Of a stretch of 33,797 nt of DNA, positions 12,877-32,679 are shown one piece after another; within the stretch, counting starts at the first letter, position 1; every line of letters begins with the position of its first letter. The notes under the pieces were generated by a model that was not told the DNA's origin, searched no databases, and saw only the letters and a list, made by a program, of their open reading frames with translations. The DNA lies in contig CAMOOV010000008.1 of assembly GCA_946621745.1 (NCBI GenBank), forward strand, positions 1 to 33,797. Reading direction: 5' to 3'. The DNA comes from an uncultured Ruminococcus sp. (GTDB lineage Bacteria > Bacillota > Clostridia > Oscillospirales > Ruminococcaceae). The translations under genes and the position numbers were made by a program.

Positions 12877-12950
12877 GTTTGTATTACTCCTTCTGTTGTC
12901 CGCAGCGGATCGGGCATATCCGCCGCGGCATGGTTCGGGCACTGATTTCT

Positions 12951-16398: not shown

Positions 16399-16429
16399 GC
16401 TCTCACCTTGTCTTTCCACTTGATAAGAT

Positions 16430-17083
16430 CTACTCTTCCAGCCTGACCGCCCGAACCGTCACTCTGCTTTGGCCGCCAAGCGTACAGGTGAACAAGGTCA
16501 GATCCCAGTCATCTGCATTGCCGAATTTGATGTCCTCGACGGCTGTACCCGGTAACTGCTCAATATTGACCACACTGTACCGATGCTCTTGCCCGGTCAC
16601 CTCTGTGAAAATGATTTCAGAATCCGTGTGAAGCGTCCCGATTCTGCCGAAATGCGTGTTGTAGTTGTGGGCGCAGATGATGAGGTCATCTGTATCAATG
16701 CCGCCCACATACCGGCAAGGCGCAATTTTCAGATTCGGATAGCTCCAGTCAGCCAGCACCGGCAGTTCAATGCCAATCTCCGGAATGCTGATATAGCCGA
16801 TATAAACATCTCCGTCCAGAGTTATCGTTTCCAATGCCTGAGACTGCTCCGGTTCCTCTTCATACTCTGCAAAGAGATCATACTCTTCTGCGGCCGGCAT
16901 GGTTGCCGCAGGCTCTGTATACTCCGGAATCTCATCTTTCAGCGTGCGCAGTATCCTTTTCGCCTGCACCCCGCTTTGCCTGTCCTCATTTACATTGTGT
17001 ATAACAAGAAACAGCGCCGTCAAAAGCAGCGCCGTTCCCAATGTAAAGCAGGCAATCCTTGCCGCTTTCAGTTTACTCTTCAT
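16430..17083 (-). CDS. Sortase (second enzyme of the locus, paired with the PQTG minor pilin)
   Basis: A 217-residue membrane-anchored transpeptidase. One N-terminal helix (about 9-29) anchors it; an acidic stretch at 50-85 links to the sortase fold. Catalytic residues are His139 in LIICAHNY, Cys200 in TLFTC and Arg207 in SRVTVRA. There is no C-terminal membrane helix, unlike the class C sortase of the same locus. The ATG at 17083 follows GAGGGAC and overlaps the end of the minor pilin gene by 11 bases, so the two are translationally coupled. I infer that it recognises the APQTG signal of that pilin, either to join it to the fibre or to anchor it to the wall. The sortase class is uncertain. 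Confidence 0.88.
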   Translation of the reverse strand: MKSKLKAARIACFTLGTALLLTALFLVIHNVNEDRQSGVQAKRILRTLKDEIPEYTEPAATMPAAEEYDLFAEYEEEPEQSQALETITLDGDVYIGYISIPEIGIELPVLADWSYPNLKIAPCRYVGGIDTDDLIICAHNYNTHFGRIGTLHTDSEIIFTEVTGQEHRYSVVNIEQLPGTAVEDIKFGNADDWDLTLFTCTLGGQSRVTVRAVRLEE

Positions 17084-18125
17084 CGTCCCTCTTTCTGAGC
17101 GTCAAACCAACGCCAATGCACAGCAGTCCGCCTGCCGCCAATGCCGGAACCGGCCACCATAATTGTCCGGTCTGCGGCGCCTTGTCTGTTGTTGTAGAAG
17201 GCGGCGGAACGGTCGTGGTCTTTGTGGTAACAGTAGTTGTACCGGATGTACCTACGGTCGTTTCTGTTACAGTTGCGGTCGTCGTTGTTTCGGCCGTATC
17301 GCCCTCATAGGTGTTGACAATCAGAAACTGCGTATGGTTTTCCTTGTAAGCTACCGTGTAATTCTCCGGAATAACCTTTTCATAGACAAACCAGATATGA
17401 TTATCCGTATCATCCCAATAATATGTCCAGTCATTCTCCTCGTTCAGTTCGATTTCGTCAAAATACCGGTTGTCACGATACCGCTCAACTGTGATTGATA
17501 CCGCTCTGTTCTGCGGCTGATTCTCGTCATTCTCCCACACCTTGCGAACAGAATACCGTTCATCGCTGTCACTGAGCGTCCGGCAAATGATCTTCGGGTA
17601 GGCATTCAGAATGTCTGCTGTTTCTCCGTCCATCTCAAAGAAAACAGCGGACGGAATATAGGTCTTATTCTCAACGACCAGAATATCGCCCCAGACGAGA
17701 TACAAACCTTTCTCCAGACCGTCAAAAGTCACGGCACCGGAACTGTTCGTGTAGCCTTCATCCCGTTTCCCGATCCCGTCCGCGATTGTCTTGCGTTTCA
17801 GTGCCTCACCGACAGATGCGACTGTCTCCGCATCCCATTCCAGCATGGACTTTGTCCGATCGCCGAGTGTCACACGGTAATCTGCAAAATCGCCCTCGAA
17901 CACAAAGTCGCTGTCCGCTCTGTGACCGACGCGATAAAGCTGCCAGTGCATATTCACAACGACATCCTCGTCCTTGACACACCGCAGCGTCATGGAACCC
18001 GTCGTCTCCTCCGCAGATGCCGGCAGAATACCGGCCATACAGCAGAGAACCAGCGCTGCCGCCAGGAAGAGGGCAGAAATCCTGTGCAGTTTTGATTTGC
18101 TTGTACTATGAAGTGCGTTACTCAT
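17073..18125 (-). CDS. Minor pilin or surface protein with Cna_B domain and PQTG sorting signal
   Basis: 350 residues. A signal peptide ends at about residue 38 (LPASA). An N-terminal beta-rich pilin domain runs to about 185 and includes GLEKGLYLVWGDI. A Cna_B domain spans about 190-275, with YSVRKVWENDENQPQNRAVS and WTYYWDD followed by IWFVYEKVIPENYTVAY. A Thr-rich linker at 278-312 precedes the sorting signal APQTG (316-320). The membrane segment begins QLWWPVPALAAGG and ends in a KR-rich tail. The PQTGQ.WP pattern is a recurring sorting type in clostridial pilus loci. It has its own promoter just upstream and AAAGGAGGG before the ATG, and overlaps the following sortase gene. Confidence 0.88.
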   Translation of the reverse strand: MSNALHSTSKSKLHRISALFLAAALVLCCMAGILPASAEETTGSMTLRCVKDEDVVVNMHWQLYRVGHRADSDFVFEGDFADYRVTLGDRTKSMLEWDAETVASVGEALKRKTIADGIGKRDEGYTNSSGAVTFDGLEKGLYLVWGDILVVENKTYIPSAVFFEMDGETADILNAYPKIICRTLSDSDERYSVRKVWENDENQPQNRAVSITVERYRDNRYFDEIELNEENDWTYYWDDTDNHIWFVYEKVIPENYTVAYKENHTQFLIVNTYEGDTAETTTTATVTETTVGTSGTTTVTTKTTTVPPPSTTTDKAPQTGQLWWPVPALAAGGLLCIGVGLTLRKRDDEE

Positions 18126-18185: not shown

Positions 18186-19055
18186 TTATTCCGGCTTTTT
18201 CGGAAGATTATGAATCGTGTCAACGGTGATACGGATTCGCCCGCGCTTGGCTGTGATTCTCCAATATACTATCATCAGCACCAGCAGCGGCACGAACACC
18301 ACAGGAATGACCTTCATCGAATCAATCTGCAAGGCATCAGCGCCGACCTTGATTTTCTTGTCGTAAATTGTAGCTATCCTGTGCCCTCTGATCAGCAGTC
18401 TGTGACTGTTCACACCATACGGCGTACAGGTCATGAGCGTAACAATATCCTCGCCGGGAAAGATCGCCAGCTTGTCGGTCTCATTCGGCAGAATAATCAG
18501 AATCCGCTCGACCTCGTAGGTATAGACCTCATTCAGCACATTGATCGTGAAAATATCGCCCTCGACGATCTGGTCTAAATCGGTGAAAAGCCGTGCTGAC
18601 GGCAGTCCTCTGTGTCCGGAAATGACCGCGTGTGTAGATGCGCCGCCGACCGGGAGACTCGAACCCTGAATATGTCCGCTGGCGATCTGCAAAACGCCCT
18701 CGCTTGTACCGTGATAAATCGGCAGCTCGACATTGATACTCGGAATAGACACATAGCCCATGATGCCCGTGCCGGAGATGTTCAGAATATCATCATAGCC
18801 GGGAATATCATTGAAATTGTTGAACGGTGCATAGAGCTTTGAGAGCTTCTGGTTATAGTCGTGCGCTTCGGCAAGGATTCTTTCGGTTTCGCTGTTGTCC
18901 ATTTGGGCAACCTCTTCTTTGTAGCTCGCCACGGCTCTGGTCTGGTGGCGCTGATTCCACCAGTTTGAAAAAGTGGGATAAAGCATCACGGAGAGACCCG
19001 CAAGGAAAATGAAGCCGAAAGCCAAAGTCATTATGATATCGCGTTTCTTTTTCAT
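18186..19055 (-). CDS. Class C pilus-assembly sortase
   Basis: A 289-residue transpeptidase that polymerises the LPSTG pilin outside the membrane. The N-terminal anchor helix is at about 8-27. A lid-like region at 72-92 precedes the sortase fold (GIMGYVSIPSINVELPIYHG). Catalytic residues are His148 in VISGHRGLP, Cys210 in TLMTCTPYG and Arg219 in HRLLIRG. A C-terminal membrane helix (about 243-265) is characteristic of class C. The usual lid motif DPW/DPF is not obvious; DDI is the nearest. The ATG at 19055 has AAGGAG. It follows the major pilin gene after a strong intercistronic hairpin. Confidence 0.92.
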   Translation of the reverse strand: MKKKRDIIMTLAFGFIFLAGLSVMLYPTFSNWWNQRHQTRAVASYKEEVAQMDNSETERILAEAHDYNQKLSKLYAPFNNFNDIPGYDDILNISGTGIMGYVSIPSINVELPIYHGTSEGVLQIASGHIQGSSLPVGGASTHAVISGHRGLPSARLFTDLDQIVEGDIFTINVLNEVYTYEVERILIILPNETDKLAIFPGEDIVTLMTCTPYGVNSHRLLIRGHRIATIYDKKIKVGADALQIDSMKVIPVVFVPLLVLMIVYWRITAKRGRIRITVDTIHNLPKKPE

Positions 19056-19194: not shown

Positions 19195-21393
19195 TTACTG
19201 AGCGTCCTCTTCCTTTGTGCGCTTCTTGGAAACCAGATACACACCTGCCAGAACCGCAGTCAGGCCGCCGCCTGCGATGAACAGCTTGGTGCCCATGCCG
19301 CCGGTGCTGGGGAGGGTGGTACTCTTGCTGTTCTGGATTGTGCCAGAGACACCGCCATTTGCACCACGAGTATTACTATTTACTGTTCCTGCATTAAGAA
19401 CAGCCATATCTTCAGAAGCAAGTTCACCGGCAATCGCTTTCAGTGCATCAGAAGGAGTACCAGACCAGTTCTGATCGTTTTCGGTGGTTGCAGTCAGCTC
19501 AAGCGTAAAGTCAGCCGCTGTCCCTGTAGGAGTAGGATATCCATCCGGAGCCTTGGTCTCAGTGAGCGTGTATGTACCGTCATCCAGACCGATGAGCTTG
19601 AACAGACCATTTGCATCGGATTTCAGTGTAGTAGTAACACCAGCTGTCAAAGTCTGATCCGCAACTGTATAAGTGCCGTTACCATTGTCAATGAACTTGA
19701 TAGCCGTAGAGCCGCTCTTCAGCTGGAACTCAGCACCTGCAAGATTAACCTTGGTATCAGCATCAATCTTGTTAACGTCAGCCTCGTAGGTGAACACAAC
19801 AACCTTATCTTCCGGTGTAGTATCAGTACCCTGCTCATCAGTAGGTGCATTTGGCTGGTCATCGTTGGTAACAGGCTTGTATTCAGTGTTAGGATTGTTG
19901 GAATAAGTAAGGTCAACCTTGTTCTCCTGACCGGAGAGACCGATAACAGCAGTAGCATTCAGCTTTGCCAAGTAATTAACTGTAACAATCGTGTCCTTAT
20001 CAACATTTGCATAAGCCTTGATGTTCTCAAAGGAAACAGTCAGCTTACCATTAGTTGAATCCCATGCCACACGGCAGTTACCGTCAGTACCCTTATCCTC
20101 AGCTCTTACAGGCACAGCAGGAGTATCAATGACAGTTTTCGACTTAATATAATCACTCACGTTCTTATCTGATGTGTAGCCCTGTGCAACCAGTGCTCCG
20201 CCTTCTGCCGTGAGGGTGTTCCAGTTAGTCTGTACATACTCTAACTTCCCTTGATCAGTCATAGAATCCCAGCCATCAACCGTGGAAAGAGCATCATTAA
20301 TTTGTGTCATAAACGTAGATGTTGCAATCAGTTCAGTGTGCGTTACCGCAGCAATTGCAGTAGTATTTTCCGTTAAATAACCCGATGCAAGTTCGTACTT
20401 ACTTGTTGTACTATTCCAAGTAAATGTCATAGCATCATTTGTGCCAACCTTTACTGTAACACTCTGAGGCTGGTCAAACTTATTGGAAAGTGTATCAGTA
20501 AACAGATAGTAGTATGCATCATAGTCAGCGAGTGTCTCAGGCATAGAACCATAAAGCTGGAACGGAACATTACTGCCAATGCAATAGTCGGCTACATCAT
20601 TCCACTTCGACTCATTCTGAACAGCGGTCTGAAGAGCGGTCTTGGTACCAGTATAATCAGTAGTTGTCTTTGCATTCTCCTGAACCTTCTTAATAACCTC
20701 AGGGTAAGACTTCTTCGGAACAATCTTAATGCCATTTGCATCCTTTGTGCCATTAACCTTGAGGATAAACTTGGAAACTGCATCAGGTTTTTCATTGTTA
20801 GGCGAATCAGCATTAGGAGTATATGAATCAGTAATGAGATAATAACCTTCTGCAAGATCAGCACCATTTGAAATATCAGTACCGTCAGTAGATGCCAGTG
20901 CTGTACCCATAATCTCTGCGAGTTCCTCTGCCTTAGCTGTACCATCTCCGACATCTGTCAAAAACTGAGCAAGAGCAGATGCTTTCTGCGCATCTGTCGG
21001 AGATGCACCAAGTGCATCAATAACATCACCAATCGACTGCCCAAAATCATCATCAACCTTGTATGCACGGAAAGCTGAATTAGTCAAAAGTGTATTTGCG
21101 GCAGTACCCAAGCCAGTTACCTTCAGCTCATAGTCAGCATCATCCGTAGAGCTTTCTGCTTTACCGGATTTCAGCGTCCAAGTACCCGTTAATATCTGAT
21201 ACGCTTGGTACTTATGTGTTGCATTATCCTTGTCAGGTGTCACAGTTGTCACATCATTTGCCATAGAGCCATCTTTTACAACAGAAACTGGAACATTCGC
21301 CGCACTCGCACTCATCATAACGCTCGGCACTGCCATCGTTGCTGTCATTGCCAGGGCAGCGATCATCGCTGCGATTCTTCTTGTCTTTTTCAT
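19195..21393 (-). CDS. Major pilus shaft protein (LPSTG backbone pilin)
   Basis: 732 residues. The signal peptide spans residues 1-31 (MKKTRRIAAM to SASA). The next region, about 35-235, is an N-terminal pilin domain with repeated AEGYYLI-type strands. A likely pilin-motif lysine lies in KKSYPEVIKKVQEN. The middle holds a D2-type isopeptide domain (GSNVPFQLYGSMPETLADYDAYYYLFTDTLS). Near the C-terminus is a Cna_B/SpaA-like domain: ADVNKIDADTKVNLAGAEFQL, then GLDDGTYTLTETKAPDGY. The sorting signal is LPSTG at 694-698, followed by a membrane helix and KKR tail. I chose the ATG at 21393 because of AAAGGAG and the signal peptide; an in-frame ATG at 21480 lies in the upstream intergenic region. The class C sortase downstream is its assembler. 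Confidence 0.93.
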   Translation of the reverse strand: MKKTRRIAAMIAALAMTATMAVPSVMMSASAANVPVSVVKDGSMANDVTTVTPDKDNATHKYQAYQILTGTWTLKSGKAESSTDDADYELKVTGLGTAANTLLTNSAFRAYKVDDDFGQSIGDVIDALGASPTDAQKASALAQFLTDVGDGTAKAEELAEIMGTALASTDGTDISNGADLAEGYYLITDSYTPNADSPNNEKPDAVSKFILKVNGTKDANGIKIVPKKSYPEVIKKVQENAKTTTDYTGTKTALQTAVQNESKWNDVADYCIGSNVPFQLYGSMPETLADYDAYYYLFTDTLSNKFDQPQSVTVKVGTNDAMTFTWNSTTSKYELASGYLTENTTAIAAVTHTELIATSTFMTQINDALSTVDGWDSMTDQGKLEYVQTNWNTLTAEGGALVAQGYTSDKNVSDYIKSKTVIDTPAVPVRAEDKGTDGNCRVAWDSTNGKLTVSFENIKAYANVDKDTIVTVNYLAKLNATAVIGLSGQENKVDLTYSNNPNTEYKPVTNDDQPNAPTDEQGTDTTPEDKVVVFTYEADVNKIDADTKVNLAGAEFQLKSGSTAIKFIDNGNGTYTVADQTLTAGVTTTLKSDANGLFKLIGLDDGTYTLTETKAPDGYPTPTGTAADFTLELTATTENDQNWSGTPSDALKAIAGELASEDMAVLNAGTVNSNTRGANGGVSGTIQNSKSTTLPSTGGMGTKLFIAGGGLTAVLAGVYLVSKKRTKEEDAQ

Positions 21394-21439
21394 AATAAAT
21401 TCTCCTTTATCAATCAAATTTGTCGTTATGTCCGGGGTT

Positions 21440-21473
21440 GGGGAGTCAGGCAGTTTCCTCTGCCTCACGCCCC
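21440..21473 (-). other. Strong hairpin ahead of the major pilin gene
   Basis: Fourteen-base arms (21440-21453 and 21460-21473) pair at 12 of 14 positions around a six-base loop; the inner six pairs AGGCAG/CTGCCT are perfect. It ends 46 bases upstream of the pilin start and has no T-run on the minus strand. It overlaps the last codons of the 38-codon small ORF. Confidence 0.55.
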
Positions 21474-21562
21474 TCGCCACGAACTGGGCTTCTGATTCTT
21501 CTTTTTGATTTGCGCTTTTGTGGTCTTTGGGTTGGCGCCGAATTCGTCCGGTGTCTATTCAT
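21446..21562 (-). CDS. Predicted 38-residue basic small protein, coupled to the adhesin stop codon
   Basis: Not recognised. The ATG (21560-21562) lies directly ahead of the adhesin stop codon, sharing the string ATGAATAG, and has a strong GGAGG at 21570-21574 with 7-base spacing. The product begins MNRHRTNSAPTQRPQKRKSK and has 12 Lys/Arg in 38 residues, ending GREAEETA; there is no signal peptide or membrane helix. Its last codons run into the hairpin at 21440-21473 that precedes the major pilin. It may be a leader peptide coupling adhesin and pilin translation rather than a functional protein. The ribosome site is the main evidence; a chance ORF is possible. Confidence 0.4.
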   Translation of the reverse strand: MNRHRTNSAPTQRPQKRKSKRRIRSPVRGEGREAEETA

Positions 21563-24500
21563 CTGACCACCTCCGGCGCTTTGAGTAGGTGTATCCGGCT
21601 GCCGCGAGCATCAGCAGTATGCCGCCGAAAACATAATAAATCTTCGTGCCGGTGCTGCCGGATTCGGGGAGTTCGACTGATGACGGAGACTCCGTTGGAG
21701 TGTTCTTGATCGTAATCAGCGGATTTGATCCCGGATTTGCTGCATTGATGCTGTAATCCGTTTCGCTGTCGCCGTCTGTGAAGCTGTAGCTTACAGTATA
21801 TCCGGCAACAGGCATTCCGTTGACCTTGATCTCCTCCGCCCAGTAATAGTAGCTTTGCAGCGTGCCGTCAGCGTTCACCTTGTAAACAGGCAAGCCTGTT
21901 AGCTGCTTCTGCCAGCTATTTGATGATGTTAGTGTGATGTCCATGTAGCCGCTTTCGTTGAAGTTTGCGGATTCTGTAGGTGTTGGGGTTTCGGCTTCAA
22001 TGTTTAGCGGTAATGCCGTGTATTCAAGTGCCGCACTGAGGCGTAGGTTAGCGGCGTTGAAGCGAGAGAGGATTTGGCGACTGTTAGCAGATTGGATAGT
22101 ATCGGTTGCATAAATGACAGAATATTCAATGCTGGTATTACTTCCTTCCTTCCAACTTGTCACCTCAAATTGATCAACGCTTAGTGAATCAGGAAATGTG
22201 ATTGTCAATGTAGTCCCAGTGTTATCACCATTGAAAGAATAATAGTATGTGTTCCCCCAGAGTTCACCTGTAGAATGGGAAGGCAAATATGACTCATCAA
22301 TCTTTGAATTATTCGCCTCAACAAACAAACCATCTATTAAGTCATAATTTGCCAATGGATACATACCAATTTTAACATATACATCATCTGTAAATTTAAT
22401 TATTGCATCCGGCCATTCAGCAGCATTGCCATTATATCTCAATGTAATAGATTTGATACTGTCGTCCAGTTTGACTGTTGTCTTTTCTGTTAATGTGCTA
22501 CTTGAACTGTCACTTCCACTCGAAGAATTATTTACAGTGTAGCTCTCAAGTTTAAGCTCCGATTTGTCCAAATCAGACGAACCTTCATTCCAGCCATCAC
22601 TTTTATAATTCCACAAGTCAATATGCTCAAGTGTCGTTGCTGTATTAACAGTGATATTCAACGTAACCATACCATCTTGATCTGCATACTCTTCGGCACA
22701 CATAGATGTCTGATCATTTAATGCAACTTGTACTAATTTTCCTGCCTGAGCTCCAGAAACAACTATGCTTACAGTTGAACCTGCGGGTATCTGTTCACTT
22801 GGATTCAAGTAGTACTTATAATTTCCGTATTGATCCATTGTAAAGTTAATGGTACTATTTTCAATAACATTTACATTAACATCTACATATTTGTCATCAT
22901 CTCTTGTGACACGAACCGCATTTTCATATGTTCCAGCCACGCTACCAGTAACGATACCATTCGCATTTACAGAAATCTTATCCGTATATCCTTCATTAAC
23001 AGAGTAAGTGAATGTACCAAAATTAGGATTAGGCGTCAACAGTACCCCTGCACTATCTTCCTTCACTACTGTGACAGGAGAAACACTAAACGTCTTCGGC
23101 AATCCAACATTTACAACAACAGTATCTTTCATACCTTGATAAGATGCCTGGATTGTAGATTCACCCGGCTGTAAAAGCGTAATTGTACCGTCGTCTGATG
23201 TTACACTCACAGAATTTCCGCTAAGCACCTCATAGGTAGCCCCTGATGTCACCACATACTCCGTTTCGCCCGAAGGCGTGTATTTCAGCGTTAATGTCGG
23301 AGCCGTGTCATCCAGTGCCGGAGCACCATCTGAAATACTGAGTGTCAACACAGGATTATCCACAATCTTTACCTTAAACGAATACGTCTGATTGTCGCCG
23401 TCTGTAAATGTCATTGTTATCTCATCGCCAACACTTGCAGTTCCCGGTTTAATTGTCCATGTCTTTGAACTTAGACCGGAAGTTGAGCTAACAAGTTCTA
23501 ATGTTCCTGTCTGTCCCAAAATTCCTGCTTTATTCGCAGTAACTTGAATTCCGGTTGTTGAGCCGATGGGCAGCAAAAGCGTTCCGTTTCTAGCAACATC
23601 CATTGTCAAAATCAGCGGATTCTGCCGTGCGTCATTGGAATCTGCGACCGTATCACGATGTACCCGGACAGTGATAGAATCTCCGGTATGATCGTTTTCA
23701 TCGTCCCATACCTTCTGCAATTTCAGCTCGGCAGTCTTGATCGTGTTGCGAATCGTAACTGTACCGCTGTCTGCTGCAAGCTGACCGTTATGCTCATAGG
23801 TCACTGCGCTAATGTATTTATTGCTGTCACCAGATATCGTATAGAACGTACCGCCGCTGTCAAGTACGTGTGTACCGACCTCCTTTATATAGTAGACATA
23901 ATCTACGCCGAGCGAATTCTTTTCAGGAAGATCTGAAATACCAAGCTGATACCCATTAGATTTTTCCAGCGTGTAAGTGCCATAGAGCGTTCCGCTGAAT
24001 TGTGATGAAATATCAGCATCATTCCCCGGCATCGAAATATCAGTAGGAATTTCTCGTGTTGTTGCATCAGCACCCACATAGATTTTATTGATCTCCGTGT
24101 AGAATGCGTTTGCAATTGCTTGATATCCTGCTTCATTAGGGTGACATCCGTCAACCAGATTGTCTCCCACCGCCGTATATACATCCACCAACATGATCTT
24201 CTTGCCTTGCTGCTTGTATTCATTGACAAGATTTGTCAGCATCGTGTTGTAGCTGGCTACCAGTGTATCCCACTGTGCCTGGATCTCAGCTTCCTGTGCA
24301 GCTGTTTTTCCATATGCCTGTTCAATATTTCTGCTATTACTCCAAGTCAGCGCAGTAAACCTTGGTATTTTGCCTATCATCAATATGGCATTCTGATTTG
24401 CACCATTATCTCCGATAAAGCCTTCGATTAACTGCCGCATTTTCGTTTCAAGAGAATCTCCTGACTCAGATGTAACTGCTACATTTGAATTGATGATGTC

Positions 24501-27500
24501 GTTTGTTCCGGCAATCACACAAATTATGTCGGCTGTTGAGATGTTTGAATCATACTGAATTTGATTTTTAATATCATCAATCAGACGTCCACTCTCAGCA
24601 ATCTTATACACTGTTGAGCTGCTATAGCCGTTCTCAGATGTCAGGTAAGCACTTTGCAACACATTAGGATATGTCTTTGCTTCTGCTATATTATTGATCG
24701 TACCCTTTGTAATAGAGTCACCATATGCCGCTACTTTGATTGATGTCGGCTTATCCAGATGCAGCTCTCCGGCAATCGTCTCTTCCTTCAGTTTCTGGTA
24801 AACCTGAACCTGAATCGAATCCGGAAGTGCTCCCGCCTTAACGCTGTCATAACCGGCTGCAGTAGGATTTGTTATGATGGTATTTCCTTCTGCATCCAAC
24901 CATATCTTTTGAACTGTCAATTCTGTGGGAAGACTGTTTGTGATTGTGGTAGTCTGTCCAGCAGATGTCGTCGTTCTATTGTAAGTTACTGTGTAATCAT
25001 TCGGCACAGCCTTCTCCACAACGTAGTAGTAGTAATTGTTATCACCATCGCTGTAGGGAAGTGCTGTCCAAGTGTGTTTCCAAACGACGCTTTCATCCTC
25101 TTGTTTGCCAAGCGTCACCTCATAGTCGATAACAGAGACTGTGATTTCCTTTGTGGCTTCGTTTGCAAACGTGATTGTGATATCGCCATTTGTAATGCTA
25201 TTACCATTTAATGTAAGATTTTTTCCTTCGTGTGATTCTGTTACACCTGTCGGTAATCCGCTCACACTTGTTATATCATTCTCAAATGTCAGTGTGATGG
25301 AATGTCCCTTTTCAATCAGCTTTACAGCATCACTCGACTGAATGCTGCTTCCGGTATTTACACCGGTTATTGCAGTATCACCGGCAATTTGCATGAGCTG
25401 CTCATCTGTCAAATCGGCAGTGGAGGACTGCACAAGCATCATTGTCAGCGTATCATTGCTATGATCTACTCCACCATCCTTCCATACCTTTTGTACGACT
25501 GCATTTGTTGTATCAGAACTGATGTCAGTATTGATGATTTCCAGCACACCCGTTCCGTTTTCAATGATTCGATTTGTTTGCGGTGCCAGATATTTTGCAT
25601 ACATCGAGATTCTCTGCTCTTCTGTCAAATTCTCTTTGATTTCAAAATTCTCAAAATCAGTTAGTTCGTAACTGTTACCTTCCTCATCCTGAACCGTAGT
25701 TGGAAGGATGTATTGGTAATTGTTACTGCTTGAAAGCGTTTTGACAGGTAAATCGAGCTTTATTTTATTGCTGCCCTGCACACCGTAAACCGTAAAGCCG
25801 ACTGCCATGTCTGTGTCGGAACCGACTTCCTTGGCGGGAGGCACCGGCCTGCCATCCAAATCAACCCACAGTTTCTTTACCACAATGCCTTCGGAATTAT
25901 TTACATTGACTGTTGATTCGTCAACATTCGTGCCGTTTCCGGTATATACCGGTTTGAACGGACCTTCATGACCATTGTTAAGGTACTTGCCGGAGGATTC
26001 ATCATAAGTGTACAGTGTTCCATTTTTATCCTTATAGCTGTATTCACGGACAAAATAGTAAACCGCACTTCCCATGTAGCCTGTTGGCAAATCATTCCAC
26101 GATGCCGAATTGGTCTCATTGGATGTTTTATAGGGAATTGTTCTTACGGGGTCAAAATCCGATGCAACATTGATGTTTTCTCTTGTAACCAGCTTCATGC
26201 CGGTTCCCTTTTTGTTATTTGCCCAATACAATTTAAATGTTACTTCGGACTGTACCGGAAGAACCCCATCTGAGCCACTGAATGTCTTTTCTACATTCAC
26301 CTTGATATTTTTACTGTTTTTGATGTTGACTCGTTTTCCTGCATTGATGATATTGATATGACCTTCCGCCTCACTTGGTGCCTTAGTCTGATCAAAGTCA
26401 TCATAAGCGTAATAGAAAACAAAATCCATATTATCCGTCAATGTATGGTTCGTCCAATTCGGCTGTGTATACCCAGGTGGTGCAACAATCTCCACAAATT
26501 TGTAAAGCGTGTTGTTATGCAGATCAAATTCATGGATATTTTCTTTGTCATTCGCTGTAGAAGCATCATCCTCCTTTGCAAACTTCAGCAGTGCTGTATT
26601 TGCGGGATATGTATCATTTGATTCCAAATATCCAGTATAAGGTGAATCAGGGAATGTCAGTTCACGACGACTCTTTTCATTGATAGTTCCTTCATCAGTT
26701 GTTATTGTTTTGATGCTTTGCAGATATACCCATTTATTGGATTCCACATCATACTTAGCAACTGCAAAGGATGCGCTCAGATAATCCAGATTATCGTTAC
26801 CATACTCTGTTTTGTAAATCGTCGGATAACGTTTTGCATTAACCTTCGCACCGGACGTATTAACCCTATTTTCATCCACACTCGAATCACCGTCACCGTT
26901 TTCAGATGCAAATGATGCCAAATTTCCGAATTTAATCACATCATCATTTGCCGGATTACCTGTGGAGTTAGGCTCCCAGCCTTCAATGCGGTAAGAGTAT
27001 TCGATATGAACCGGTGTTTCATCAGGAACGGTTAATGTGAGGAGGGCGGGAGCATCTTTGGTAATAGTAGCCGAAAGAATTTCAAATGGACTTTGATAAT
27101 CATTCAGCTCATATACATTTGCCTCGCTGGAAGTAGGAACAGATATGTCTACTTCTACTATGCCACTTTCATCCAACTGTAATGCATTGTAATTATAAGC
27201 CACTTCTCCTTTATTATTACCATATGTATTATATTGATTTGTGAGTTTTGCAAAAAAATGAAGTTCATTATTCGATGATGAAGAGGGATACTTCAGTTTT
27301 AAATGAAGTCTGTCGCCTGGAGAAAGATCTGCTGTTCTCCATTTTGTTCCGTTACTATCAAACTTGCTCCATTTCGATACATCCATCCTCTGTTCAATTG
27401 TTGCGCCATAATCAATCGTGTACCCAAGCTGTGACTTGATAGAATTGCTCAAATCAGGTTCACCGTCAACGAGGGAGAACATATCAATTTTTTCAAGTTC

Positions 27501-30500
27501 AAAACTCAAACTGTCAAGTGGAATTGCAACGTCCTGACCGCCTGACTTTCTTGTGCCTCCTAAGTAAGTTAGTGCATCTGTAATATCTACTGTTCCGGTA
27601 CCTGAAAGTTTCTTGCCAGTTGGATTGAAGTCAATGCTGTACTTGATAACCCCCTGCCCAGCCGCTTCTGCTGATTTGGTAATTGGTTCTGATTCAACAT
27701 CCGGCATTTCGCCATTCACTTTAAGTGTAGCTTCAAATGGTGTACCTCCCTCTTTAGAAACCTTATTAATCAGGTTTCCTTCCGCATCAAGACTCGTCTC
27801 TAATAATGAAACAGGTATTGCCGTATAATAGTCAAGAAATAGTATTCTATTATCAACCATTCGTATGGACAGAAGATTATTATTTTGCGTTATGTCCATA
27901 ATTTGCCAGCCTGCATTAATTAAAAAATATTGTGTATCTGAATAATATGCTTTAGGTACATAATTACTCAGTCCGCTTTCAGACCCAGATACATAGACAG
28001 CGTTTGTAGGCAGTATATCGGTATACACACTTGTTATGTCAGCAGGAGTTAAAAATATACGCCATGAAAACATATAGCACTTTGTAGGAGTTCCGTCAAT
28101 GTTGATTGTTTCAACAGGTACAGCTGAACTATCTGACAGATTCACCTGCGTAATACGGTTACCGCTACTGTCTACAGCAACCTTACCAAAATTTGTTGTG
28201 GATGTATTGGTAAGCGTAAAGGTCTTATCTGACTCAGCCTTGACTGTGTCAAGATTAGCGGTTAGCGTGTAACCTGTAACGGGTTCCTCTTGTATCTTGT
28301 AATAATAATAGGTGATTTTATCATGATCCGCATCATATTTCCATCTTGGGAAGTTATAGTCCAATGTGAAGTTATCTTCTTCACTTGCATCACTTGCTGC
28401 CAGTGTGAACCCATCTTCGTTCGGATACGGAACCCATGTGGGGCTTGCAGGCAAATTGCCATCTTCTCCGGCTTCTGCCTGTAGCACCTTCACTGTAATC
28501 GAATCAGGACGGGTTCCTAATGCGTTTTTGTTATCACTCCATTTCTTATTCAAGTTCAGATGAACATTTTGTACTTCGTTTGGATTTTCTCGCTTAAATG
28601 TAAGACCTGGTGTTGTTTTAGGAACACCGTTAAAAGTGTAATTATTAGAGAATGCAACCTGTTGTCCAAATCGAATCGCAGAGGTTTTCGCCGTTGTCTG
28701 ATAATCAATATACACATGGTGGTAAGATGCAAGAGTTGAATTTGATTTGAAAATCACCTTGAACCCTACAGCATTCTCATCGACTCCTGCTTCCTGTGTC
28801 AAGTTACTGTCTTTGTAGAACTTGACCTCATACATTTCAGATGTCAGTGGAGTCGTGTTTCCACGGGAATTGTTCTCGCCTGTCGTTACTGCTCCCTCAA
28901 TATGACTTGTGATATAACTGCGCTGATCCGGCGCAATGTAATGTGGAACATCAGATTCACCTATGAATACATCATAATACTCGTTTCCTTCTTGGAATCC
29001 GGTATCCTTGACCATAGATACAGACCAGTTGAGAATACGATCTGCGGTGTTCTCATTTCCAAGAACGCTTTCATACGCATTGCCAGAATAACTTTTATTC
29101 GCTTCAATACGCTGCTGGATGTCCCGACCTACTTTGCCAGAATCCGCAGACAATGTATCGTTTTTATTCTTAGCAGATGCCTGATTGTATAAGCCTACCT
29201 TCTGTCCGTTTTGATACTTCTCATAATCCGTACTGGAAAGATAATCCTGAATTGTCGTATTATAGTACAGCTTTAATGTGTTAAGCGGTCTGTCTTTATT
29301 GTACGCTGCATCATCTTCATTAAAAGAAATTTTTATTGTGTCATCCGATGTTTTTGTTATTTGGAAACCGTATTTGTTTTTGGTATCATCCTGGCTGTTG
29401 ACTTGAATATCATTTCCAAAATATGCATTATACCCTAAAGATGCTACCTGTTCCGAAGACAACTTCTTGAAGGCTTCATCTGTGATAGTATATTCGTTGA
29501 GACTTTCTTTCGCATTTTGAATTGTACTCAGCGTAAACTGCCATTCAAATGTACCGGTATCCTGATTCAGGCCATTCAACTGTTTTACGAGACTCAAATT
29601 ACGGGAATAGTTGATTCCGCCTTGACCTGACGTTTCGTCGAAATCCGGCCTTGAAGCTACAACGCTATTATTGTTCCAGCCCGAAATTGCGTTGCCCCAA
29701 AATACAACCTTCACTTCTGACGGGATAGTGCTGTCATTTGCAAACGTAAGTGTTGCACCATCAACTGTATATTTGGATTTGTCAATCACATTGCCGTTTA
29801 TGTCATATACTGTCACATTATCTGAACTGCCAAACGTCCCACTGTTCTGCTCTGTCAAAACAACATTGTTCAGGCTGTCGCCCTGCTTATGTTTTACATC
29901 TATCTCCCATTGAATTTTATCATTGGCTCCGGACTGTATCTCATAATCAGGGGTACCTTTTTTTGTAACAGTAACGCCATTCTCAATTGTAACCGGATAC
30001 TCTGCCGGAATAGAGATATCACCTTTTGTAAGAGTGGATTTGTTTGTGGTACTTGCTCCAAGGCTGGATGAAGTACGATATGTCAGTATAATATGCTTTG
30101 GTTTTTGCTCATCATTTCCATATTGTTTAAACTTCAATGTTGTTCCATCTAAATACATACTATCAACTGGTTCAACATTGTAGCTTTGCTGAGACCAGTC
30201 GATTGGGCTATCGTTCAATACATCAGCAAAGCTGTATGTACTCATATCCACATAGCCCGTTGTTTCATCAATAGTAACAGTCCAGTCAATATAGTAATTA
30301 TCACCCTCGTGAACCACTGAACCACTTTTGGAGATTTCGGGCTTTGTATCGTCGAATTTAAGGGTTACTTCAGTTTTGCCAAATTCAAACGTTTGATCGC
30401 CCCGTTCGTCTTCATTACGATCCACTTTTGCATTAAAGTAAATCGAACCTGTCATGCCATTGCTTGCAGCTAAATAATTTATATAATCCGAAGTATAATG

Positions 30501-31034
30501 AAAAACGATCAGACCACTAGTATTAATTGAATAATATCCAGCAGTTGTCAAACCATCATTCCAATCAGGATCAGTAAAACTAAGAGTACTGCCTGAATAA
30601 TTATTTTGTGGCACAAGTTTGGAATCCAACTGATAGTACGCAAATGGAGTTGACAGTAGTCCTGTTAAATCATCCTTATCAAGTTCGTAGTTAAATTCAA
30701 TCCTGATGGAAGCAGGATCTGCATCAGCCGCATCGATCACAGCACTATCGCCTTTAATTGTCACTTCCTGTTGCTGTCCTACAGTAAATTTGCCTGTGAT
30801 AAAATTAGTGTAATCTGTAAATCCTGCAGTGCTTCCACTATAAGGTCCATCAAAATAATCAACACCATCATTCAAATTATTACTGGTAATCGCCATCCCC
30901 GGCTTCACCAGATCCAGCGGGACGAAGAAAGCACACAGCAGACTAAACACGATTGTGATTGCCGTTACTCTGTGATACCATTTTCGCACGGTTATCTTCT
31001 CATTTATTCTGTTGTTTACATCATTCAGTTTCAT
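21555..31034 (-). CDS. Giant LPXTG-type tip adhesin with multiple Cna_B domains and an inserted SGNH hydrolase
   Basis: 3159 residues. An N-terminal signal (YHRVTAITIVFSLLCAFFVPL, about 20-40) is followed by several tandem Ig-like adhesin domains (about 230-820; recurring I.W...I pattern). Cna_B-type domains follow near 820-943, 1415-1540, 1578-1715 and 1717-1840. Three more, starting near 1843, 2037 and 2434, are each interrupted. The first holds about 100 residues of unknown fold. The second holds an SGNH hydrolase (about 2099-2311: AYGDS, Ser2107; GTND, Asn2178; DGCHPN, Asp2295/His2298). The third holds about 560 residues of Ig-like, BIG2-like and possibly carbohydrate-binding modules. The sorting signal is LPESG at 3122-3126, then a helix and KRRR tail. 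The ATG has AAGGAGAG upstream. Its place ahead of the shaft pilin and its size suggest the pilus tip. Confidence 0.92.
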   Translation of the reverse strand: MKLNDVNNRINEKITVRKWYHRVTAITIVFSLLCAFFVPLDLVKPGMAITSNNLNDGVDYFDGPYSGSTAGFTDYTNFITGKFTVGQQQEVTIKGDSAVIDAADADPASIRIEFNYELDKDDLTGLLSTPFAYYQLDSKLVPQNNYSGSTLSFTDPDWNDGLTTAGYYSINTSGLIVFHYTSDYINYLAASNGMTGSIYFNAKVDRNEDERGDQTFEFGKTEVTLKFDDTKPEISKSGSVVHEGDNYYIDWTVTIDETTGYVDMSTYSFADVLNDSPIDWSQQSYNVEPVDSMYLDGTTLKFKQYGNDEQKPKHIILTYRTSSSLGASTTNKSTLTKGDISIPAEYPVTIENGVTVTKKGTPDYEIQSGANDKIQWEIDVKHKQGDSLNNVVLTEQNSGTFGSSDNVTVYDINGNVIDKSKYTVDGATLTFANDSTIPSEVKVVFWGNAISGWNNNSVVASRPDFDETSGQGGINYSRNLSLVKQLNGLNQDTGTFEWQFTLSTIQNAKESLNEYTITDEAFKKLSSEQVASLGYNAYFGNDIQVNSQDDTKNKYGFQITKTSDDTIKISFNEDDAAYNKDRPLNTLKLYYNTTIQDYLSSTDYEKYQNGQKVGLYNQASAKNKNDTLSADSGKVGRDIQQRIEANKSYSGNAYESVLGNENTADRILNWSVSMVKDTGFQEGNEYYDVFIGESDVPHYIAPDQRSYITSHIEGAVTTGENNSRGNTTPLTSEMYEVKFYKDSNLTQEAGVDENAVGFKVIFKSNSTLASYHHVYIDYQTTAKTSAIRFGQQVAFSNNYTFNGVPKTTPGLTFKRENPNEVQNVHLNLNKKWSDNKNALGTRPDSITVKVLQAEAGEDGNLPASPTWVPYPNEDGFTLAASDASEEDNFTLDYNFPRWKYDADHDKITYYYYKIQEEPVTGYTLTANLDTVKAESDKTFTLTNTSTTNFGKVAVDSSGNRITQVNLSDSSAVPVETINIDGTPTKCYMFSWRIFLTPADITSVYTDILPTNAVYVSGSESGLSNYVPKAYYSDTQYFLINAGWQIMDITQNNNLLSIRMVDNRILFLDYYTAIPVSLLETSLDAEGNLINKVSKEGGTPFEATLKVNGEMPDVESEPITKSAEAAGQGVIKYSIDFNPTGKKLSGTGTVDITDALTYLGGTRKSGGQDVAIPLDSLSFELEKIDMFSLVDGEPDLSNSIKSQLGYTIDYGATIEQRMDVSKWSKFDSNGTKWRTADLSPGDRLHLKLKYPSSSSNNELHFFAKLTNQYNTYGNNKGEVAYNYNALQLDESGIVEVDISVPTSSEANVYELNDYQSPFEILSATITKDAPALLTLTVPDETPVHIEYSYRIEGWEPNSTGNPANDDVIKFGNLASFASENGDGDSSVDENRVNTSGAKVNAKRYPTIYKTEYGNDNLDYLSASFAVAKYDVESNKWVYLQSIKTITTDEGTINEKSRRELTFPDSPYTGYLESNDTYPANTALLKFAKEDDASTANDKENIHEFDLHNNTLYKFVEIVAPPGYTQPNWTNHTLTDNMDFVFYYAYDDFDQTKAPSEAEGHINIINAGKRVNIKNSKNIKVNVEKTFSGSDGVLPVQSEVTFKLYWANNKKGTGMKLVTRENINVASDFDPVRTIPYKTSNETNSASWNDLPTGYMGSAVYYFVREYSYKDKNGTLYTYDESSGKYLNNGHEGPFKPVYTGNGTNVDESTVNVNNSEGIVVKKLWVDLDGRPVPPAKEVGSDTDMAVGFTVYGVQGSNKIKLDLPVKTLSSSNNYQYILPTTVQDEEGNSYELTDFENFEIKENLTEEQRISMYAKYLAPQTNRIIENGTGVLEIINTDISSDTTNAVVQKVWKDGGVDHSNDTLTMMLVQSSTADLTDEQLMQIAGDTAITGVNTGSSIQSSDAVKLIEKGHSITLTFENDITSVSGLPTGVTESHEGKNLTLNGNSITNGDITITFANEATKEITVSVIDYEVTLGKQEDESVVWKHTWTALPYSDGDNNYYYYVVEKAVPNDYTVTYNRTTTSAGQTTTITNSLPTELTVQKIWLDAEGNTIITNPTAAGYDSVKAGALPDSIQVQVYQKLKEETIAGELHLDKPTSIKVAAYGDSITKGTINNIAEAKTYPNVLQSAYLTSENGYSSSTVYKIAESGRLIDDIKNQIQYDSNISTADIICVIAGTNDIINSNVAVTSESGDSLETKMRQLIEGFIGDNGANQNAILMIGKIPRFTALTWSNSRNIEQAYGKTAAQEAEIQAQWDTLVASYNTMLTNLVNEYKQQGKKIMLVDVYTAVGDNLVDGCHPNEAGYQAIANAFYTEINKIYVGADATTREIPTDISMPGNDADISSQFSGTLYGTYTLEKSNGYQLGISDLPEKNSLGVDYVYYIKEVGTHVLDSGGTFYTISGDSNKYISAVTYEHNGQLAADSGTVTIRNTIKTAELKLQKVWDDENDHTGDSITVRVHRDTVADSNDARQNPLILTMDVARNGTLLLPIGSTTGIQVTANKAGILGQTGTLELVSSTSGLSSKTWTIKPGTASVGDEITMTFTDGDNQTYSFKVKIVDNPVLTLSISDGAPALDDTAPTLTLKYTPSGETEYVVTSGATYEVLSGNSVSVTSDDGTITLLQPGESTIQASYQGMKDTVVVNVGLPKTFSVSPVTVVKEDSAGVLLTPNPNFGTFTYSVNEGYTDKISVNANGIVTGSVAGTYENAVRVTRDDDKYVDVNVNVIENSTINFTMDQYGNYKYYLNPSEQIPAGSTVSIVVSGAQAGKLVQVALNDQTSMCAEEYADQDGMVTLNITVNTATTLEHIDLWNYKSDGWNEGSSDLDKSELKLESYTVNNSSSGSDSSSSTLTEKTTVKLDDSIKSITLRYNGNAAEWPDAIIKFTDDVYVKIGMYPLANYDLIDGLFVEANNSKIDESYLPSHSTGELWGNTYYYSFNGDNTGTTLTITFPDSLSVDQFEVTSWKEGSNTSIEYSVIYATDTIQSANSRQILSRFNAANLRLSAALEYTALPLNIEAETPTPTESANFNESGYMDITLTSSNSWQKQLTGLPVYKVNADGTLQSYYYWAEEIKVNGMPVAGYTVSYSFTDGDSETDYSINAANPGSNPLITIKNTPTESPSSVELPESGSTGTKIYYVFGGILLMLAAAGYTYSKRRRWSDE
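24102..24740 (-). other. SGNH/GDSL hydrolase domain inside the tip adhesin
   Basis: All four blocks of the SGNH esterase/lipase superfamily are present in order. Block I is KVAAYGDSITKG (Ser2107), block II AESGRLIDDI, block III VIAGTNDI (Gly and Asn2178), and block V DGCHPNEAGY (Asp2295, His2298). Family members deacylate polysaccharides, lipids or other esters. On a pilus tip a carbohydrate O-acetylesterase is a reasonable guess, but the substrate is not determined by the sequence. Confidence 0.88.
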
Positions 31035-31077: not shown

Positions 31078-31653
31078 TCACACCAGCCCAATACTTTTAA
31101 ACGGCAAAACTCTGAAAAACACCACACCGATGATATTCTCCTCTGCGATGCAGCCAATACTCGTTGATCGACTGTCAATTGAAATTCCGCGGTTGTCGCC
31201 ACAGACGAAAAAACGAGATTCCGGCACCTGATACGGCAGCTGAATATCGCACTCACCCAGCGCCAATTCTGAAACATACGGCTCGTCATGCACCTCGCCG
31301 TTCACATAGACCGTGCCGTCCTCTGAAATATCAATCACATCGCCCGGCAGCCCGATCACGCGTTTAATCAGAACCTTATTATTATAGTAGAAAGCAACAA
31401 TGTCTCCCTGCTTGATGTCGGCGAGCTTATTGCAGAGCAGAACCTGATCGTTCTGCAAGGCCGGCGTCATGCTGGTTCCCGTCACGCGGAGCACCGGCAG
31501 GAGCAGCATGGATATCAGCACCGCCGCCGCTGCTGCGACAATCAGTCCGGAAACCGTGCTTCGGAGCGAGCTGCGGAAGCGTTCACCGTAACGCAGGCGC
31601 TTCATCTCTGCCGCAAACTGTTCGGTCGTCGGTAAATCTCTGCGTTCACTCAT
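31078..31653 (-). CDS. Signal peptidase I of the pilus locus
   Basis: A 191-residue type I signal peptidase that cleaves signal peptides of secreted proteins, probably the pilins of this operon. One N-terminal membrane helix (about 34-55) precedes the catalytic Ser61 (TGTSMTPAL) and Lys97 (VLIKRVIGLPGD). The conserved GDNRGISIDSRSTSIGCI block (Box E) follows. The Ser/Lys dyad marks it as a bacterial P-type enzyme, not the archaeal/SipW Ser/His type. The start overlaps the stop of the small coiled-coil gene as ATGA, and the adhesin gene begins 43 bases downstream. Signal peptidases within pilus operons are known from other Gram-positive bacteria as assembly helpers. Confidence 0.95.
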   Translation of the reverse strand: MSERRDLPTTEQFAAEMKRLRYGERFRSSLRSTVSGLIVAAAAAVLISMLLLPVLRVTGTSMTPALQNDQVLLCNKLADIKQGDIVAFYYNNKVLIKRVIGLPGDVIDISEDGTVYVNGEVHDEPYVSELALGECDIQLPYQVPESRFFVCGDNRGISIDSRSTSIGCIAEENIIGVVFFRVLPFKSIGLV

Positions 31654-32322: not shown

Positions 32323-32679
32323 TCAGCTCTGATCCCTTGCGCGGAACAGTATCGCTGCGAGCAGCCCGAACAGCATCGCCGCAGTAATGCCGCAGGCAGA
32401 GGATGTCAGTCCGCCGGTCAGGATTCCAAGCAGACCGTCCCGTGCAACGCCCTCGCGGATGCCCTTCGCAAGCAGATTGCCGAAGCCCGAAAGCGGAACG
32501 GATGCGCCCGCGCCCGCAAATTCCGTCAGCGGCTCATAAAGCCCCAGTCCGCCGAGGATCACGCCCGCAACGACATAGCCGACGAGGATCCGCGCCGGCG
32601 TCAGCTTCGTGTAGTCGATCAGAAGCTGTCCGATCACGCAGAGCAGCCCGCCGATCACAAATGCCCAGAGAAAATTCAT
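32323..32679 (-). CDS. spoVAE: Stage V sporulation protein AE (SpoVAEb type)
   Basis: A 118-residue membrane protein of the SpoVA channel, which moves dipicolinic acid into the forespore and out again at germination. It has about four hydrophobic segments, beginning MNFLWAFVIGGLLCVIGQLLIDYTKLTPARILVGYVV and including the Gly-rich GAGASVPLSGFGNLLAKG, both typical of the family. Its start overlaps the spoVAD stop by four bases (ATGA), so the two are translated together. Length is normal. A strong terminator follows, so this is the end of the operon. Confidence 0.93.
   Translation of the reverse strand: MNFLWAFVIGGLLCVIGQLLIDYTKLTPARILVGYVVAGVILGGLGLYEPLTEFAGAGASVPLSGFGNLLAKGIREGVARDGLLGILTGGLTSSACGITAAMLFGLLAAILFRARDQS

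Follow-up and report, generated by a model that had tools for sequence, protein, structure and literature searches.

In a stretch of 33,797 nucleotides (the window) from a fibre-digesting gut bacterium we describe a gene whose product we read, with moderate confidence, as the subunit at the tip of a pilus assembled by sortase, with an active SGNH esterase, most likely an O-acetyl-esterase of plant cell-wall carbohydrates, lodged in a loop of one of its Cna_B domains. Comparison of the sequences establishes the intactness of the domain, its insertion in Cna_B, the operon, the conservation of catalytic and presumed isopeptide residues and the recurrence of the arrangement across genera.

The SGNH domain belongs to a giant protein with Cna_B domains and an LPXTG-type end, the Gram_pos_anchor profile scoring 18.5, slightly below its cut-off of 20. 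Its gene is read from the minus strand; across 24102-24740, the coordinates rightly assigned to the SGNH domain in the preliminary description, the plus-strand frame is interrupted by several stops. That description had also placed an LPXTG-type protein of 3159 residues ahead of a shaft pilin and a class C sortase, and the open reading frame, the LPESG motif and the neighbouring genes agree with it. A DNA search of a plasmid collection returned no match. The operon comprises the following features:

31078..31653, minus strand: SipA-like type I signal peptidase, with which the operon begins (Pfam and gene order)
21555..31034, minus strand: giant LPXTG protein, presumed tip pilin, 3159 aa (open reading frame, Pfam, gene order)
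21657..21671, minus strand: LPESG sorting motif of the giant protein, aa 3122-3126 (protein sequence)
19195..21480, minus strand: shaft pilin with an LPSTG end (SpaH/EbpB family model, 54.6 bits, under the cut-off of 95)
18186..19055, minus strand: class C sortase (NF033745, 275 bits vs a cut-off of 160)
17073..18125, minus strand: base-type pilin with Cna_B, an AYPK motif and an APQTG end (Pfam and motif scan)
16430..17083, minus strand: second sortase (profile match)

The preliminary description had recognized an SGNH domain from its four blocks and named four residues; these are present as claimed, in blocks that are kept in relatives:

24714..24716, minus strand: codon of the catalytic Ser2107, in GDSITKG (protein sequence)
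24501..24503, minus strand: codon of Asn2178, block III, in GTND (protein sequence)
24150..24152, minus strand: codon of Asp2295, block V, in DGCHPN (protein sequence)
24141..24143, minus strand: codon of His2298, block V, in DGCHPN (protein sequence)

A profile search and a structure prediction, both suggested there as checks, support the assignment. Pfam matches Lipase_GDSL (PF00657) to residues 2102-2311 with an E-value of 7.6e-16 (59.3 bits vs a cut-off of 23.6) and Lipase_GDSL_2 (PF13472) with 35.7 bits (cut-off 32.9), both above the curated thresholds, and the SGNH match of the giant protein is far beyond chance. The fold model (m75cc137dd55e, mean pLDDT 81) is of SGNH type: Foldseek returned 142 matches with an E-value of at most 0.001, the best being 4rw0, with TM-scores normalized by target of up to 0.76. 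When a profile of the tip SGNH domains was compared with PDB sequences, the best match was 2vpt (E 8.9e-17), titled as a family 3 carbohydrate esterase of Clostridium thermocellum, and acetyl xylan esterases are among the stronger PDB matches. The AxeA1 acetylxylan esterase model (NF042968) gave 26.8 bits for the SGNH domain, far under its cut-off of 700, and the domain is placed here in no carbohydrate esterase family.

The enzyme sits inside a Cna_B domain. The DNA alignment of this slot is uninformative across the insert, and the comparison was made with protein sequences instead. Two congeneric orthologues (G008 and G009) share this Cna_B and its flanks but lack the SGNH domain, and the corresponding stretch of G008 alone is recognized as Cna_B (24.9 bits vs a cut-off of 22.3). 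Insert and host are delimited as follows:

24768..24929, minus strand: host Cna_B, part 1, aa 2036-2089, with the presumed isopeptide Lys2043 (alignment)
24048..24767, minus strand: SGNH insertion, aa about 2090-2329, missing from both orthologues (limits set by eye on protein sequences)
23733..24047, minus strand: host Cna_B, part 2, aa 2330-2434, with the presumed Glu2385 and Asn2430 (alignment)

The SGNH domain thus occupies the Cna_B loop between Lys2043 and Glu2385/Asn2430. The three host residues are invariant in all 10 aligned SGNH-bearing tips, and strands are predicted at model residues 4-11 and 390-397, so that the Lys lies in the first strand and the Asn in the last; an isopeptide bond between Lys2043 and Asn2430 is accordingly predicted from residue conservation and position. 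The insertion within Cna_B, the recurrence across genera and the additional catalytic cargo were points absent from the preliminary description.

SGNH-bearing tip proteins were found 13 times, and the arrangement occurs in at least six genera of the window's family. All 10 aligned tips hold the SGNH domain in the same Cna_B loop, and an eleventh (L070) does so by eye. Genes for a shaft pilin and a class C sortase adjoin 10 of the 13, the remaining three being on short contigs. Across genera the order signal peptidase, giant protein, shaft and class C sortase recurs, usually followed by the base pilin and the second sortase. SGNH is merely one among several tip contents: a sample selected by sortase contained it in two of 16 tips, a sister tip (G405) carries a GH9 cellulase inside its last Cna_B, two sister tips carry CBM77 and three CBM4_9.

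Eleven tip SGNH domains form one group in both trees, which are unrooted. The first tree (35 rows) joined them with support 100/100 and with a long free row (L002, branch 3.01) lying within the group; in the second (33 rows), built without the long rows L002 and L008, the eleven tips make up one side of a branch with support 100/99, found in 100% of 200 bootstrap trees. Duplicate loci (L001, L003, L006, L007) and second tip copies (L040, L048, L053) were left out of the trees, as were stretches with an E-value above 1e-4 or a length outside 140-330 residues. Mapping of the tip label on the first tree needs four changes, at least three of them forced; the SGNH domain was thus acquired by tips of this kind on more than one occasion. 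In the sortase tree, clustering of the SGNH label is only weak, at a level equalled by 33 of 500 shuffles. Outside the family, a pilus reading was set aside for the giant SGNH-bearing frames of the order search, namely L124, L125, L127, L128 and L126 (1431 aa), which contain a single Cna_B-like motif or none and did not match the window pilus genes in BLAST. L129-L132 and L175 likewise have no such motif and no match to these genes. The absence of Cna_B in these frames is a motif count and not a Pfam result. The SGNH domain of L129 was not found again among the listed open reading frames.

That the giant protein is the tip pilin, as the preliminary description had proposed, is supported mainly by its size, its sorting signal and the recurring gene order. 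A scan for acceptor lysines adds only weakly to this part of the claim. The YPK-type motif is lacking in all 32 giant proteins save for two loose VPK matches and is present in 14 of 22 base pilins; the scan is nevertheless weak evidence because the motif is missing from nearly all shafts too ([YVF]PK in only two of 32). The invariant shaft lysine, Lys256 in 32 of 32 shafts, sits in a different pattern that was not part of the tip scan. The protein might instead act on its own as a fibrillar adhesin anchored to the wall and bearing an esterase, next to a shaft pilin that builds pili without it. It has an LPXTG end of its own, the lysine motifs separate tips from shafts poorly, and L174, a member of the tip SGNH group from outside the order, carries the enzyme in a Cna_B of an LPNTGG protein, around which neither a sortase nor a pilin gene was found within 19.9 kb (BLAST of all neighbours against the window pilus genes; Pfam for nine of 11). 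However, the gene order shared across genera speaks against such a protein, and we regard this explanation as doubtful.

The preliminary description had offered three substrates, acetylated xylan, sialic acid of mucin and lipid of the host. Among these we favour acetylated plant polysaccharide, because the source genome contains 113 dockerin matches and dockerin-bearing SGNH proteins (e.g., L155), and because sister tips carry GH9, CBM77 and CBM4_9; the paralogue L155 is only 22% identical to the window SGNH and falls outside the tip SGNH group. SGNH enzymes that act on mucin sialic acid or host lipid exist, and the PDB matches include, weakly, a chain that bears the name sialate O-acetylesterase (6njc, E 0.008). 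The dockerins and the cargo of the sister tips speak against a host substrate of either kind, as do the stronger matches to family 3 carbohydrate and acetyl xylan esterases, and both host substrates find little support; we consider deacetylation of sialic acid or action on host lipid improbable. Acetylated plant polysaccharide would thus be the probable substrate.

The C-terminal part of the giant protein was inspected for further modules:

21705..23726, minus strand: last Cna_B, aa 2437 to about 3110 (end approximate, by eye), interrupted by a long insert made up of Ig-like and beta-sandwich modules
22521..22862, minus strand: beta-sandwich module in the last Cna_B, aa 2725-2838, weakly CBM-like (Foldseek)

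Among the 50 Foldseek matches listed for the first C-terminal module, carbohydrate-binding modules account for 29 and galectin-10 for 11. Since none of all Foldseek matches reaches E 0.001, the module is not called a CBM. The beta-sandwich region has no PDB sequence match, and a search of 297 family genomes returned the region itself and one further match (E 3.5e-4) and nothing else. A Tae4 match in the C-terminal region (16.6 bits vs the Pfam cut-off of 27) was taken as chance.

Tip pilins are usually regarded as binders, and the SGNH fold might have been turned into a binding module that is no longer an enzyme. The adhesin setting fits this, as does one tip SGNH (L058) that lacks the catalytic Asp. 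Yet none of the 13 tip SGNH domains has lost the catalytic Ser, Asn or His, and 12 of the 13 retain the Asp, although identity to the window SGNH is as low as 28-32% for seven of the nine relatives aligned. This conservation in spite of divergence argues for an intact enzyme and not a relic, and the repeated gain of SGNH by tips points in the same direction; loss of the enzymatic function is thus quite unlikely. Of the earlier esterase claim, the intact enzyme is well supported, and esterase activity itself is predicted from the conserved residues. An assembly artefact of the fragmented source genome (307 contigs, 88.8% complete, 4.2% contaminated) can practically be dismissed, as the same arrangement is present in 11 tip proteins, one with 77% identity across the domain, from nine assemblies.

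In the model that we propose, the host Cna_B would fold around the inserted SGNH domain, and Lys2043 and Asn2430, assisted by Glu2385, would form an isopeptide bond that closes the chain into a covalent ring enclosing the enzyme. Given the predicted bond, pulling force may pass by the enzyme, which the Cna_B ring would shield. The class C sortase would link the tip to the shaft pilin, and the shaft would terminate on the base pilin, itself fixed to the wall, so that the tip could grip fibre with its other modules and strip ester groups at the point of contact. As relatives hold an SGNH domain or a cellulase in similar positions, such pili may process plant fibre besides gripping it. A presumed tip with a conserved hydrolase, and sister tips from operons of the same type with a cellulase or plant-polysaccharide-binding modules, would let a single polymer both adhere to fibre and attack it. 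More tentatively, and somewhat short of an even chance, we suggest that isopeptide-locked tip Cna_B domains of gut fibre degraders are natural enzyme rings, in which an SGNH esterase or a GH9 cellulase can be swapped in the loop and is displayed, covalently closed and force-shielded, at the end of a pilus, independently of the dockerin-cohesin cellulosome.

The insert is a von Willebrand A domain in the pilin RrgA and a thioester domain in Spy0125. RrgA and Spy0125 are named among pilins whose CnaA or CnaB fold carries a large inserted domain (PMC12617251), and the window protein resembles them in having a foreign domain in a pilin loop between isopeptide residues. According to that source, inserts at this place are usually isopeptide or adhesion domains, whereas the insert of the window protein is a hydrolase and that of a sister tip a GH9. 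Inserted adhesion domains are already known; an enzyme within a pilus-tip Cna_B was not found in print in a search of open-licence PMC papers. 2vpt and other SGNH hydrolases share the conserved blocks, catalytic residues and fold of the window enzyme, which differs from 2vpt in being inserted in the Cna_B of a pilus protein, neither separate nor dockerin-borne. Like SpyRing enzymes, it would be held between the partners of a spontaneous isopeptide bond, here a predicted one. SpyTag/SpyCatcher derives from a CnaB2 domain (PMC7900414), and SpyRing enzymes are engineered and cyclised, whereas the Cna_B-SGNH arrangement is natural; it would be a natural example of a CnaB that forms an isopeptide bond around an enzyme, an approach that the SpyRing authors stated in 2016 was not known in nature (PMC4748275). 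Ruminococcal cellulosomes likewise present CAZymes and carbohydrate esterases on the surface of a fibre degrader, with ScaE anchored there by sortase, but they rely on dockerin-cohesin pairing (PMC4081043), whereas the window enzyme belongs to the pilin polypeptide itself.

The SGNH domain of the window is encoded within a giant-protein gene that is bordered on one side by a signal peptidase gene:

21555-31034, minus strand, giant LPXTG protein of 3159 residues, an open reading frame with Cna_B domains and LPESG close to the C-terminus
31078-31653, type I signal peptidase gene

Genes for the shaft pilin, a class C sortase, a base-type pilin and a second sortase lie on its other side, and the N-terminus of the giant protein is hydrophobic and signal-like by eye. 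We infer that the giant protein is the pilus tip, mainly from operon order, size and sorting signals. Shaft pilins carry an invariant Lys (32 of 32; K256 in the window's shaft, 19195-21480), followed four residues later by Pro in 31, a pattern that replaces YPKN; YPK or FPK occurs in 14 of 22 base-type pilins. A scan for YPK-type motifs, which did not cover the shafts' own Lys pattern, returned nothing in 32 giant proteins except two loose VPK matches, and as [YVF]PK is found in only 2/32 shafts, the contrast in lysine motifs between shafts and giant proteins is weak. The motif distribution fits a tip-shaft-base chain, though only weakly. Around the operon, a SpoVAD gene (32676-33701) lies upstream, and transglutaminase-like and MoxR-type ATPase genes (8115-12942) lie downstream. 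After the second sortase, 15064-16419 encodes a protein of unknown family with two halves that look similar by eye, without a match in Pfam or NCBIfam; a gene of similar length occupies the equivalent position at locus L015.

Pfam Lipase_GDSL matches the giant protein at residues 2102-2311 (E 7.6e-16), and the protein sequence confirmed Ser2107, Asn2178, Asp2295 and His2298, the four SGNH residues named in the preliminary description. A model of the Cna_B-SGNH unit (399 residues, 10 sequences, mean pLDDT 81, pTM 0.60) gave 142 matches at E 0.001 or better when searched whole against PDB structures, led by GDSL-type proteins such as 4rw0 and 8ik1 and including the acetylxylan esterase Axe2 and the Clostridium thermocellum family 3 carbohydrate esterase 2vpt. 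The latter is also the best PDB match by sequence profile (E 8.9e-17). Since the window's SGNH scores far under the cut-off of the NCBIfam acetylxylan esterase model AxeA1, we claim no esterase family for it.

Residues 2030-2435 were used as query against 30 genomes of the genus, and five matched, the window's own counted. In two of them (G005, G006) only the SGNH part matches, the matched frames being 395 and 667 aa long. In G009 only the flanks match (query 1-56 and 301-403, almost adjacent in the DNA), and in G008 only one flank (query 293-405). The tip orthologues, 2830 aa in G008 and 2892 aa in G009, have this same Cna_B domain but no SGNH, and the stretch from G008, scored by itself, passes as Cna_B (24.9 bits against a cut-off of 22.3). 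In the window's giant protein, the insert spans roughly residues 2090-2329, flanked on both sides by the presumed isopeptide residues of the host Cna_B (Lys2043, Glu2385, Asn2430). As read from these sequences, the SGNH domain is an insertion into Cna_B.

The SGNH domain alone, searched against 396 genomes of the family at E 1e-8, yielded 27 matches in 19 genomes. Ten of these, from 8 genomes in 6 genera, fall in open reading frames 2687-4524 aa long; the other 17 fall in frames of at most 660 aa. All ten giant proteins hold SGNH in the same Cna_B loop, with the Cna_B Lys, Glu and Asn and the SGNH Ser, Asn and His invariant and the catalytic Asp kept in nine. Together with L070, from a contig titled Ruminococcus, and with L137 and L151, found by sortase-guided reading, they form a set of 13 SGNH tips, in which Ser, Asn and His are kept throughout and Asp in 12. 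Shaft pilin and class C sortase adjoin the gene in 10/13; the contigs of the remaining three (L059-L061, one genome) are too short to show neighbours. In L151 the SGNH occupies a different Cna_B loop, and in L137 it precedes the final strands of the last Cna_B, a domain for which no first strand was located. A single genome, G163 (contigs C4-C66), has four giant proteins with SGNH and five matches to class C sortase.

In a tree of 33 SGNH domains, 11 of the 13 tips fall on one side of a branch with support 100/99, recovered in 100% of the 200 bootstrap replicates. Outside this group stand L137 and L151; the partner of L151 (100/99) is an SGNH from the genome of the window, in a 732-aa frame that also has a dockerin match (L161, G000:C117). 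In an earlier tree that included two long rows, one of these, L002, falls inside the tip group, and there a label marking all 13 tips requires four changes, at least three of them forced. Sortase P0003 has matches in 84 of the 396 family genomes (E 1e-60). A tip gene is visible at 16 of the 20 P0003 loci read and bears SGNH in two; SGNH is therefore one of several tip contents. In a tree built from 28 sortases, six changes are required to explain the SGNH label, of which well-supported branches force at least three, and 33 of 500 label shuffles did equally well: the module is gained, lost or swapped. In the window's tip, the first 1000 residues are 66% identical to the tip of G373 (L056), filed in another genus, and only 32-39% identical to those of own-genus G003, G008 and G009; the gene may have moved between genera, or a genome may be misfiled.

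An order search matched 51 of 394 genomes; its long frames showed no Cna_B-SGNH arrangement outside the family. In another family of the order, four giants of ~3120-3330 aa (L124, L125, L127, L128) each contain three SGNH-like stretches, and pilus genes are absent. In the class, the Cna_B-SGNH profile matched 15/391 genomes, and both matches in long frames outside the order were read. That of G851 has no Cna_B-like motif. That of G1022 (L174, contig C97) is a 2859-aa LPNTGG protein whose SGNH, within a Cna_B, joins the tip group (12 rows, 100/99); no sortase or pilin genes were found among its neighbours.

Nineteen SGNH-less tips were scanned, revealing Cna_B in 15, Big_2 in four, CBM77, CBM4_9 and an ice-binding-like adhesive domain in two each, and GH9 in one; CBM4_9 and Cbm74 occur once each among the 13 SGNH tips. 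The GH9 (residues 1793-2222, E 1e-85; best PDB match endoglucanase 2yik, E 3.9e-78) belongs to L138 (G405:C99), a tip of the same operon type. There the last Cna_B is split: GH9 comes after its first strand, and its final strands close off the insert, with further modules in between. CBM77 is found in the tips of G209 and G268 (L148, L150), in L148 likewise within the last Cna_B. The window's own last Cna_B contains Ig-like repeats and beta-sandwich modules. One such module, modelled at pLDDT 77, has as best Foldseek hit the family 2 carbohydrate esterase 2waa (E 2.2e-3), and carbohydrate-binding modules make up 29 of the 50 hits shown, none at E 0.001. This slot changes fast: the window's beta-sandwich modules (22080-22832) are not those present in G008, G009 and G373, whereas the Ig-like stretch ahead of them is shared with G008 and G009.

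The window's genome has 19 Lipase_GDSL_2 matches. Dockerins match 113 times at E 0.001, with 110 of these above the curated cut-off (150 of 196 candidates scored), which suggests a fibre degrader with cellulosomes. Contigs carrying the domain's closest relatives are titled Oscillospiraceae bacterium, with roe deer duodenum and goat rectum as sources, or uncultured Ruminococcus; one group of contigs is labelled 'Lapin', which we take as rabbit.

PMC12617251 and PMC7900414 describe the CnaB isopeptide bond as linking the first and last strands; a domain between these strands would therefore lie inside a covalent ring. The insert is predicted to be held in this ring, and pilin tension would be expected to pass through the isopeptide bond. 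According to PMC12617251, CnaA and CnaB folds both accept inserts, mostly isopeptide or adhesion domains. An enzyme as insert, as predicted for Cna_B-SGNH, corresponds to the engineered SpyRing (PMC4748275), an approach that its authors in 2016 stated was not known in nature. Each element is familiar by itself: SGNH enzymes, pili built by sortases, and inserts in Cna_B. Searches of an open-licence literature library found no report of the combination seen here, in which presumed pilus tips house a conserved hydrolase group in one Cna_B slot and a sister tip has a cellulase within its last Cna_B.
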